A stretch of DNA of 64,000 nt from Pseudomonas sp. B28(2017) (lineage in GTDB: Bacteria > Pseudomonadota > Gammaproteobacteria > Pseudomonadales > Pseudomonadaceae), in NCBI RefSeq assembly GCF_002113025.1, contig NZ_NEJH01000005.1, forward strand, positions 124,001-188,000. Direction: 5' to 3'. Shown here in pieces: positions 30,829 to 34,748 of this stretch. How positions within the stretch are numbered: position 1 is the stretch's first letter; the number at the start of each line of letters is the position of its first letter. A program made the position numbers and the translations under genes. The notes beneath the pieces were generated by a model, which had not been told where the DNA came from, did no database searches, and worked only from the letters and a program-made list of their open reading frames with translations.

Positions 30829-31296
30829 CTAAGCCTGGCTGAGCGGGCGTGGCTTAACAAGCTTGGAGAATGTTCCGCTGGCATCGTATAGCGCCGGGGT
30901 TTCACCGCCGGTGAGGATTTTCAGCTGGGTGGCCGTAGCGGCCTGCTGAGTGAGGATCGACTGACCGTTGTTGGCGTTGATGGCCTGGCACTGGGCCAGG
31001 AGATCGGTCAGCACGTCACTTTGCGCCAGCAACTGGTCGCCAATGCTCGACTGACTGGCCAATTGCTCAAGACCGCCACGGTTGGTCGGCAGGTTGAGGC
31101 TGGCGAGAGTTTCACTGCGCTTGCGGCCATGCTGTTCGAGCAAGACGATCAATGCCTGTTTCTGCGCCAGGATGTCCTCGAGCAATGGCATGTCGCGGCC
31201 ATGCAATGCGAGGGATTCGGTCTGCAGTAATTCCAGCAAGTGTTGCGCTGGAGCAAAGTCGTCGGTGATCAGTTGCAGTAAATTAGTGTCGTGCAT
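30829..31296 (-). CDS. flgN: Flagellar hook-filament junction chaperone FlgN
   Basis: The 155-residue helical protein is the export chaperone for FlgK and FlgL. It starts MHDTNLLQLITDDFAPAQHL, and heptad-rich helices include LALHGRDMPLLEDILAQKQALI and LLAQSDVLTDLLAQCQA. The C-terminal part is Ala/Thr/Gln-rich, as in other FlgN proteins. It follows flgM by 48 bases on the minus strand and should be read from the sigma-28 promoter ahead of flgM. Confidence 0.92.
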   Translation of the reverse strand: MHDTNLLQLITDDFAPAQHLLELLQTESLALHGRDMPLLEDILAQKQALIVLLEQHGRKRSETLASLNLPTNRGGLEQLASQSSIGDQLLAQSDVLTDLLAQCQAINANNGQSILTQQAATATQLKILTGGETPALYDASGTFSKLVKPRPLSQA

Positions 31297-31838: not shown

Positions 31839-32597
31839 TTACATGGACACTTCCACCTGCCCCGGCGCCATGACCTGCGCCTTGATGACTCGCTGGGAAT
31901 TGAGGTTTTTCACCCGGATCTGTTCGCTCAGGCTGCCGTTTGACAGGGCTTCACCCGGCATGCGCACGCTGAGCGTACCGCTGCGGGCGGTAATCACTAC
32001 CTGATCACCCTTGCGGATGACTTCGGCCTGTTCGATGTGCACCAGGGTAATCACCTGGTCGGCGACCGTTGGTCGGGTCAGTCGCTGCCCGATCGCCTGA
32101 TCAAGGGAGGTCAGGTAGCCCTGGCTGATCAGGCTGATATCGCGCTCGCGCAGGACCACGTCCCCAGGCTCGACAATGGCGGCGCGGCGCAGTGGCCGTG
32201 CGGTGGTCACGACATCGCGAAACAGGCGGACTTGAGCGGGCACGAAGACGGTCCAGGGGGTGGCGCCCTCGCAGCGAACCTTGACCGTGACCCGTCCCAG
32301 CGGTTTGGGGCTCTCAAGCGTTGCTGTCAATTCCTTGTCGCACATCGGCATGTGCATGCGCGGATCGAGCGGGTTGACCTGGATCTCGTAGCGACCTTCC
32401 GTTTGACTGGTCGCGAGATAGTCTTCTACGGTGAATTCAAGAAAGCCCTGAGTGACGCCGATAAGCATGTCAGGCAAGGTAACCGCGTCAGCAAGGGCAG
32501 GGCTGCCAGCGTTGAACAGGCAAACAGCCGCCAGCACGCCGAGCAATTTGCGGCAGGGTGTGGTCAGGCGTCGAAAAAATGTCGGTTCTGTGTTCAT
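31839..32597 (-). CDS. flgA: Flagellar P-ring assembly chaperone FlgA
   Basis: The 252-residue periplasmic protein helps assemble the FlgI P ring. A signal peptide ends at ...NAGSPALA, followed by a SAF-like domain (ARPLRRAAIVEPGDVVLRERD) and the conserved C-terminal region TVADQVITLVHIEQAEVIRKGD. The called ATG at 32597 lacks a Shine-Dalgarno, and the sigma-54 promoter just upstream would place the transcript start two bases before it, so translation may be nearly leaderless or start further in. It is divergent from cheV and separated from flgM by 167 bases. Confidence 0.93.
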   Translation of the reverse strand: MNTEPTFFRRLTTPCRKLLGVLAAVCLFNAGSPALADAVTLPDMLIGVTQGFLEFTVEDYLATSQTEGRYEIQVNPLDPRMHMPMCDKELTATLESPKPLGRVTVKVRCEGATPWTVFVPAQVRLFRDVVTTARPLRRAAIVEPGDVVLRERDISLISQGYLTSLDQAIGQRLTRPTVADQVITLVHIEQAEVIRKGDQVVITARSGTLSVRMPGEALSNGSLSEQIRVKNLNSQRVIKAQVMAPGQVEVSM

Positions 32598-32609
32598 AAC
32601 GATTAAAAA

Positions 32610-32625
32610 AGCAAGCGCCGTGCCG
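32610..32625 (-). promoter_or_regulatory. Sigma-54 (RpoN) promoter of flgA
   Basis: CGGCACGGCGCTTGCT matches the TGGCACG-N4-TTGCT consensus at every defined position but the first. Pseudomonas flgA is a class II (FleQ/RpoN-dependent) flagellar gene, which supports the call. The implied +1 is 32599. Confidence 0.75.
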
Positions 32626-32680
32626 TTTAGTGATGAAGGCGCGTCGCAACAACACTTGGCGTTGGTGTAGGAGTCTGGGC

Positions 32681-33613
32681 ATGGCTGGTGTAATGGATGC
32701 GGTAAACCAGCGCACGCAACTGGTGGGGCAGAATCGCCTGGAGCTGTTGTTGTTCCGTCTCGACGGTCAGCAGCTGTACGGGATCAACGTGTTCAAGGTT
32801 CGGGAGGTGCTGCAATGTCCCCAACTGACGCTGATGCCCAAGTCCAGTCCTGTCGTGTGCGGTGTAGCGAACATCCGGGGGGCGACCATACCGATCCTTG
32901 ATCTGGCGATGGCGACCGGCTCCGGTGCTTTGAAGGACAAGAACAATCCCTTTGTGATCATCACGGAGTACAACACCAAGACCCAGGGTTTCCTGGTCCG
33001 CTCGGTGGAGCGCATCGTCAACATGAACTGGGAGGAGATCCATCCGCCACCCAAGGGCACCGGGCGCGATCACTACCTGACGGCAGTGACGCGGGTTGAC
33101 AATCAGTTGGTCGAAATCATCGACGTCGAGAAGGTGCTGGCGGAAGTGGCACCGACGCCGGAAGCGATTTCTGTCGGCGTGGTGGATGTCGAAACCCAGC
33201 ACAAGGCGCTTTCGTTGCGAGTGCTGACGGTCGACGACTCGTCGGTGGCACGCAAGCAGGTCACACGTTGCCTGCAAACGGTCGGCGTCGAAGTGGTGGC
33301 GTTGAACGACGGTCGGCAAGCGCTGGATTACCTGCGCAAGCTGGTCGATGAGGGCAAGAAACCGGAAGAAGAGTTCCTGATGATGATCTCCGATATCGAG
33401 ATGCCGGAGATGGACGGGTACACACTGACGGCGGAAATCCGCAACGACCCGCGCATGCAAAAGCTTCATATCATCCTGCATACTTCGTTGTCGGGAGTTT
33501 TCAATCAGGCAATGGTCAAGAAGGTCGGTGCCGATGACTTCCTGGCCAAATTCCGCCCTGATGACCTGGCATCCCGGGTAGTCGACCGGATCAAGGCTGC
33601 AGATATCAGCTAG
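32681..33613 (+). CDS. cheV: Chemotaxis coupling/adaptation protein CheV
   Basis: The 310-residue protein fuses a CheW-like coupling domain (about 20-165, with RLDGQQLYGINVFKVREVL and NIRGATIPILDLA) to a receiver (about 180-305). The receiver has acidic residues in LTVDDSS, the phospho-acceptor in MMISDIEMPEMDGY, and T/S and K positions in ILHTSLSG and AKFRPDDL. ATG 32681 follows TAGGAG; the frame is open from 32630. It lies 45 bases upstream of cheR, as PA3349-PA3348 in P. aeruginosa, and both probably form one unit. Confidence 0.96.
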   Translation: MAGVMDAVNQRTQLVGQNRLELLLFRLDGQQLYGINVFKVREVLQCPQLTLMPKSSPVVCGVANIRGATIPILDLAMATGSGALKDKNNPFVIITEYNTKTQGFLVRSVERIVNMNWEEIHPPPKGTGRDHYLTAVTRVDNQLVEIIDVEKVLAEVAPTPEAISVGVVDVETQHKALSLRVLTVDDSSVARKQVTRCLQTVGVEVVALNDGRQALDYLRKLVDEGKKPEEEFLMMISDIEMPEMDGYTLTAEIRNDPRMQKLHIILHTSLSGVFNQAMVKKVGADDFLAKFRPDDLASRVVDRIKAADIS

Positions 33614-34732: not shown

Positions 34733-34748
34733 TGGCATGGGGCTTGCT
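34733..34748 (+). promoter_or_regulatory. Sigma-54 (RpoN) promoter of flgBCDE
   Basis: TGGCATGGGGCTTGCT is a near-perfect -24/-12 element with GG and GC ten bases apart. The predicted start is 34759, 34 bases before flgB. Pseudomonas flgBCDE is known to be RpoN/FleR-dependent. Confidence 0.9.

Follow-up and report, generated by a model that had tools for sequence, protein, structure and literature searches.

FleQ boxes have been described as pseudopalindromes of 14 bp that end in GxC and are AT-rich in the centre (PMC10723142), and at fliE, flhA, and fliL FleQ binds close to the sigma-54 site or downstream of it (Jyot, 2002; Baraquet and Harwood, 2016, cited in PMC6120874). The FleQ targets found by ChIP-seq in Pseudomonas fluorescens F113 and P. 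putida KT2440 include flgA, at a resolution that does not reach the individual box, and the passages of the same paper that deal with motif-bearing genes do not name flgA among them (PMC6120874). In Escherichia coli, PflgA was one of three promoter fusions whose activity was raised 4–7 fold by FleQ (PMC5026340). Leaderless mRNAs, the second kind of system with which flgA will be compared here, have been called few in the gamma-proteobacteria; 43 mRNAs of P. aeruginosa PA14 carry leaders of less than 10 nt, a number that was termed low (PMC3272035), but they demonstrate that the leaderless class exists in the genus. For the translation of such mRNAs a 5′-terminal AUG matters (PMC3616915). Among the matches listed in searches of the open-licence PMC literature, there was no report of a leaderless flgA in Pseudomonas.

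The flgA gene considered here occupies positions 31839–32597 on the minus strand of the window, that is, of the whole 64,000-nucleotide stretch of Pseudomonas sp. B28(2017) DNA that was analysed. Its product of 252 amino acids is a P-ring chaperone precursor according to the Pfam domains PF13144 (ChapFlgA, 1.1e-35) and PF17656 (ChapFlgA_N, 2e-18). On the same strand, a sigma-54 (-24/-12) element, CGGCACGGCGCTTGCT, is located at 32610–32625, with its GG at 32624–32623 and its GC at 32612–32611, which places the -12 C at 32611. The ATG start codon (32595–32597, minus strand) lacks a Shine-Dalgarno sequence, and 13 nt lie between its A (32597) and the -12 C. The transcription start follows from a spacing rule in which the C of the sigma-54 GC is taken as -12. 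By this 12-nt rule the +1 is predicted at 32599, within a range of 32597–32600, and the leader would comprise 0–3 nt; since the spacing allows leaders of each of these lengths, we use "near-leaderless" as the safe wording. Inside the open reading frame (ORF), codons 5–10 contain a FleQ-box-like DNA site, GACATTTTTTCGAC (32570–32583, minus strand), which begins 28 nt past the -12 C in the region encoding the N-terminal end of the precursor. The divergent cheV gene (32681–33613, plus strand), which encodes CheW and response regulator domains, is separated from flgA by 83 bp and has the Shine-Dalgarno sequence AGGAG at 32669–32673; it served as a control gene. With a probability of roughly two in three, we interpret this arrangement as a FleQ-activated promoter whose predicted sigma-54-made flgA mRNA is leaderless or nearly so, with a leader of 0–3 nt and the box inside codons 5–10.

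When scored against the consensus TGGCACG-N4-TTGCW, in which GG and GC are 10 bp apart, the element of the window fits 10 of the 11 fixed positions. A first-order random model of both strands predicts about 2.6 equally good elements per 64 kb, four were seen in the window, and a search of the whole genome for an element followed after 8–20 nt by an ATG gave five matches, compared to four for the reversed control pattern. A lone element was therefore rejected as proof of a promoter, being near chance level in one genome, and the flgA element is taken as real because it is conserved across the genus, not because of a single sighting. Among the four other matches of the whole-genome pattern, only one precedes a long ORF, of 485 amino acids, where an element lies 8 nt 5′ of an in-frame ATG (locus L232, contig C13 of the same genome, positions 369340–369364). 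This ORF, which presumably encodes a protein resembling dicarboxylate transporters, probably has its true start 41 codons later, in which case the ATG near the element would be spurious and a trap for gene callers.

Conservation was assessed in 149 Pseudomonas genomes drawn evenly from a larger group, all but one of which (G093) contain flgA. The 148 start regions, read as 30 loci and 118 further stretches, have the element at the same place in every case, with consensus scores of 10 in 146 loci, 11 in one, and 9 in one. The element is followed by the in-frame ATG at 12 nt in 100 loci and at 13 nt in 48, and the start codon is ATG in 148/148, never GTG or TTG. Similarly, among 80 named Pseudomonas loci, the best of 203, a set that overlaps with the 148 loci and like them includes close relatives, the element was found in 80/80, at 12 nt in 54 and at 13 nt in 26. 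The preliminary description of this DNA had placed a sigma-54 element before flgA and the +1 at 32599, two bases 5′ of the ATG; the element and the spacing on which this prediction was built are thus found throughout the genus. Spacings of 11 or 14 nt were not seen in any of the 148 genus loci, even though single-base insertions and deletions occur, and the 12- or 13-nt distance is kept although the spacer sequences differ. At least 15 switches between the two distances are needed on a FastTree phylogeny of cheV and mature flgA codons, an unrooted tree that was used only for counting spacing changes. The base preceding the ATG is a pyrimidine in 148/148 loci; this invariant position was rejected as a mark of the start site, as cheV has a pyrimidine there in 147/148 and flgM in 110/110. 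The flgA match in genome G034 (C1:5358226–5358909) contains a TGA in frame and extends only over query residues 1–227.

That no Shine-Dalgarno sequence is visible at the flgA ATG, as the preliminary description had stated, holds equally well beyond the window: the duplex energy with the anti-Shine-Dalgarno sequence reaches -6 kcal/mol or lower in 0/148 loci and -4 kcal/mol or lower in 1/148. The controls cheV (148/148) and flgM (110/110 loci) all reach -6 kcal/mol. The absence of this signal is not unique to flgA, however, as flgN (start at window position 31296) likewise has no locus at or below -4 kcal/mol among 110, with a mean energy of -3.0 kcal/mol. In a different reading, FlgA is mainly produced from a longer transcript with a real leader by Shine-Dalgarno-independent initiation, the promoter being an unrecognised one in the 83-bp gap or inside cheV and the sigma-54 start a minor one. 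In P. putida, reporter assays revealed only a 2–3 fold sigma-54 dependence of PflgA, with higher basal levels, and thus higher sigma-54-independent activity, in the rpoN mutant (PMC5026340), although the discussion of this paper describes the three promoters under direct activation as strongly dependent on sigma-54. This low dependence suggests another promoter and weighs most heavily against flgA being purely leaderless. A simple consensus scan of positions 32450–33000 found no sigma-70-like site, however, and no operon reads into flgA, because cheV is divergent and only 83 bp away; moreover, the long transcript would have to be translated without a strong Shine-Dalgarno sequence in all 148 genomes. 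We therefore regard a longer transcript as the main source of FlgA as unlikely.

Returning to the near-leaderless transcript, its ATG has to be the codon that is used. The frame starting from it runs for 60 codons without a stop and matches the FlgA reading frame in 148/148 loci, and the stretch preceding the LIG…FLE anchor falls into 10 length classes of 38 to 51 codons, all of them in frame. By comparison, a stop occurs within 34 codons in frame +1 of 139/148 loci, but in frame +2 of only 40/148. The pN/pS ratios of 0.04–0.82 in codons 2–3 and 11–17 are weak evidence of purifying selection on these codons as coding sequence. The preliminary description had left a choice between leaderless translation and an internal TTG or GTG start, and it is the former option that is favoured by the comparison. 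If the internal start were the true one, transcription would begin as predicted by the sigma-54 element, translation would start from an ATG, GTG, or TTG further downstream, and the first codons would be a 5′ untranslated region (UTR) holding the FleQ box. This is the layout of most of the order-level relatives that were read (see below), and in one Pseudomonadaceae genus, g6, an ATG at codon 11 is present in 4/4 loci, one of which has no upstream ATG. In the genus Pseudomonas, however, codons 2–27 contain no ATG, GTG, or TTG in 21/148 loci (codons 2–26 in 22/148), and in the remaining loci the internal in-frame starts occur at varying positions. The internal starts of the window, TTG at codon 18 and GTG at codon 21, would each leave a signal peptide whose n-region is devoid of positive charges. 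Shine-Dalgarno-like sequences (-4 kcal/mol or lower) precede an internal start in 13/148 genomes; their absence from the others is a weaker argument, since flgN and most later starts of the order-level relatives lack them, too. The scattered positions and the 21 genomes without any candidate, together with the frame that is open from a universally present ATG, led us to set aside the internal start, which is improbable, as the better reading.

Outside the genus, the near-leaderless layout was looked for in the rest of the family. A sample of 42 loci from other Pseudomonadaceae (L234, L235, and L263–L302; 47 genomes matched, five weak matches being left out) includes 29 in which the ATG is in frame at nt 12 or 13, five with the element and a later start (L293, L296, L297, L298, and L300), six without the element, among them L288, which is cut by a contig end, and one ambiguous case (L301). 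In genus g6 (L280, L282, L284, and L286), the locus that has lost the upstream ATG is L280 (genome G182), where ATA replaces it; here, the ATG at codon 11 may be used as internal start. Six of the 29 near-leaderless loci (L234, L266, L276, L277, L284, and L285) have a later candidate start with an anti-Shine-Dalgarno energy of -4 kcal/mol or lower, and with -8.6 kcal/mol before a later GTG the assignment of L277 to this group is doubtful. From the order outside the family, 26 loci were compared, chosen as the best among matches in 77 genomes. The element precedes flgA in 24/26, seven of the 24 having a weak score of 8. An in-frame ATG at nt 12 exists in three loci (L243, L244, and L248); L243 and L244 were not counted as near-leaderless, having a strong Shine-Dalgarno sequence (-8.4 kcal/mol) before a later start, so that only L248 remains. 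The later candidate starts of the order-level loci reach -4 kcal/mol in only 8/26. Between the start and the anchor there are 37–44 residues in the 29 near-leaderless family loci and 26–35 in 21/26 order-level loci, whose starts were picked by eye for the residue count before the anchor.

The site within the ORF agrees with the published description of FleQ boxes, as judged from its sequence, and matches 11/14 positions of the loose P. putida FleQ consensus quoted in PMC6120874. Over the 148 genus loci, 12 positions match in one locus, 11 in 22, 10 in 62, 9 in 50, 8 in 10, and 7 in three, whereas 0.07% of the 189,947 background 14-mers from the same loci, a background that itself consists of related sequences, reach at least 10. 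According to PMC6120874, a reliable FleQ motif could not be defined from the ChIP-seq data and consensus sequences are unreliable genome-wide; for this reason, the position of the site is a better argument than its consensus match. Constraint acts on the nucleotides themselves. The pattern CGACA-N6-CGAC at +14 to +28 from the ATG is nearly invariant, including degenerate third positions, with +15 G conserved in 148, +18 A in 143, and +27 A in 134 of the 148 loci. In three length groups (198, 13, and 400 pairs), pS is 0.06–0.07 in codons 4–10 vs. 0.26–0.34 in codons 11–17, and in a fourth (106 pairs) it is 0 vs. 0.43; synonymous divergence is thus depressed about 4–5 fold over the box. Codon 5 ends with G in 148/148 loci (ACG 127, CCG 19, ATG 2), codon 6 is ACA in 133 (133 of 138 Thr codons; also TCA 6, ACG 5, CCA 4), and codon 9 is CGA in 133/148. 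In codons 31–60, used for comparison, ACG and ACA account for 64 and 45 of 532 Thr codons and CGA for 2 of 44 Arg codons.

The distance of this site from the promoter recurs at other flagellar genes. Throughout the genus, the distance from the -12 C to the first base of the flgA box is 27 or 28 nt, and in the genome of the window the FleQ-like sites of fliE and flhA both begin 28 nt after their own -12 C. Samples of 40 genomes each yielded 30 fliE and 30 flhA loci, in which the element and the 14-mer were picked jointly as the best pair, a procedure that favours good pairs but no particular distance. The best 14-mer is located at nt 27–28 in 29/30 fliE loci. For flhA, 28 of the 30 loci have an element that scores at least 8, and 27 of these have the 14-mer at nt 26–29; the other two loci lack such an element. 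The flgA loci of the order-level relatives were scanned with a box model derived from the Pseudomonas sequences, in which numbering begins one base earlier. Of the 24 loci with an element, 15 have the best match at nt 24–27 (11/15 with shuffle p < 0.05) and six at 16/17 or 36/37, a shift of about one helical turn (3/6 with p < 0.05); in the other three it is located elsewhere. Since the box of these relatives precedes their later starts, we regard it as a DNA element that goes with the promoter rather than as a protein feature. In L238, L246, L248, L258, L261, L262, L297, and L300 the best box, weak in several of them, is found about 10 bp nearer to the promoter or farther from it, as if helical phase were kept. 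A FleQ 14-mer at flgB, a gene reported to be directly activated by FleQ in P. putida (PMC5026340), was rejected: downstream of the flgB element (-12 C at window position 34747) no 14-mer within 110 nt exceeds a match of 8/14. In the least probable alternative, the conserved nucleotides of codons 5–10 would not bind FleQ but would either enhance translation of the leaderless mRNA or belong to the cheV promoter. This would suit a site just inside the mRNA next to a divergent gene, and the first 60 nt are indeed less structured than synonymous controls (-5.1 vs. -8.0 kcal/mol; 30 of the 148 loci). It is unlikely, however, given that the site keeps its distance at fliE and flhA and lies ahead of the later starts of the order-level loci. 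In addition, greater openness than in the controls was seen for the first 14 nt in only 18/30 loci, a proportion so weak that we rejected the idea of codon choice opening up the 5′ end of the mRNA.

For the near-leaderless, FleQ-activated flgA, the following course of events can be proposed. FleQ bound at GACATTTTTTCGAC would activate the sigma-54 polymerase at PflgA from a site approximately 16–17 nt downstream of the +1, as at fliE and flhA, and the transcript would begin 0–3 nt 5′ of the flgA AUG. This mRNA could then be translated from its 5′-terminal AUG without a Shine-Dalgarno sequence. Because the flgA ORF begins before the FleQ site, the latter falls within codons 5–10, where it would fix the otherwise uncommon codons ACG, ACA, and CGA. 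In those relatives whose start lies later, a site of this kind would be part of the 5′ UTR. The simplest account of the Pseudomonadaceae layout may be that the ORF was extended upstream, through the operator and the old leader, up to the transcription start. Taken as a whole, the comparison of sequences supports the interpretation given in the preliminary description. Evenly balanced, in our view, is the further-reaching claim that flgA of the main Pseudomonadaceae branch is obligately leaderless or near-leaderless, such that the ORF start has moved past the FleQ operator, the same 14 bp act as an enhancer site while encoding part of the signal peptide, and leaderless initiation is required to make FlgA.

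If the near-leaderless reading is correct, flgA, near-leaderless across a genus and transcribed from a sigma-54 promoter that depends on an activator, would offer a natural system in which to study leaderless translation within a motility programme. It would also represent a clear case of an operator-like site within a coding sequence, and the box would account for the uncommon codons at the beginning of FlgA. Moreover, the suggested fixed-distance rule, with the FleQ box about 27–28 nt after the -12 C, could aid the identification of FleQ sites, for which ChIP-seq provided no robust motif (PMC6120874).

Compared with the known systems, flgA resembles the FleQ-dependent class II promoters of fliE and flhA in combining a sigma-54 element with a FleQ-like 14-mer at 27–28 nt. 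At fliE in the genome of the window, however, this site is located in the leader before the start codon, and flhA looks likewise, whereas the flgA site is inside the ORF and there is almost no leader. The flgA genes of other Pseudomonadales families share the sigma-54 element (24/26) and the box-like site at the same distance (15/24), but unlike in Pseudomonas their starts lie later. With the leaderless mRNAs of gamma-proteobacteria, flgA has in common the lack of a Shine-Dalgarno sequence and an AUG that is predicted to be at or near the 5′ end; it differs from them by its putative sigma-54- and FleQ-driven transcription and by its conservation over a genus. Thus, while the promoter class itself is known, a class II FleQ promoter that lacks nearly all of its leader and carries the downstream box within the ORF appears to be new.
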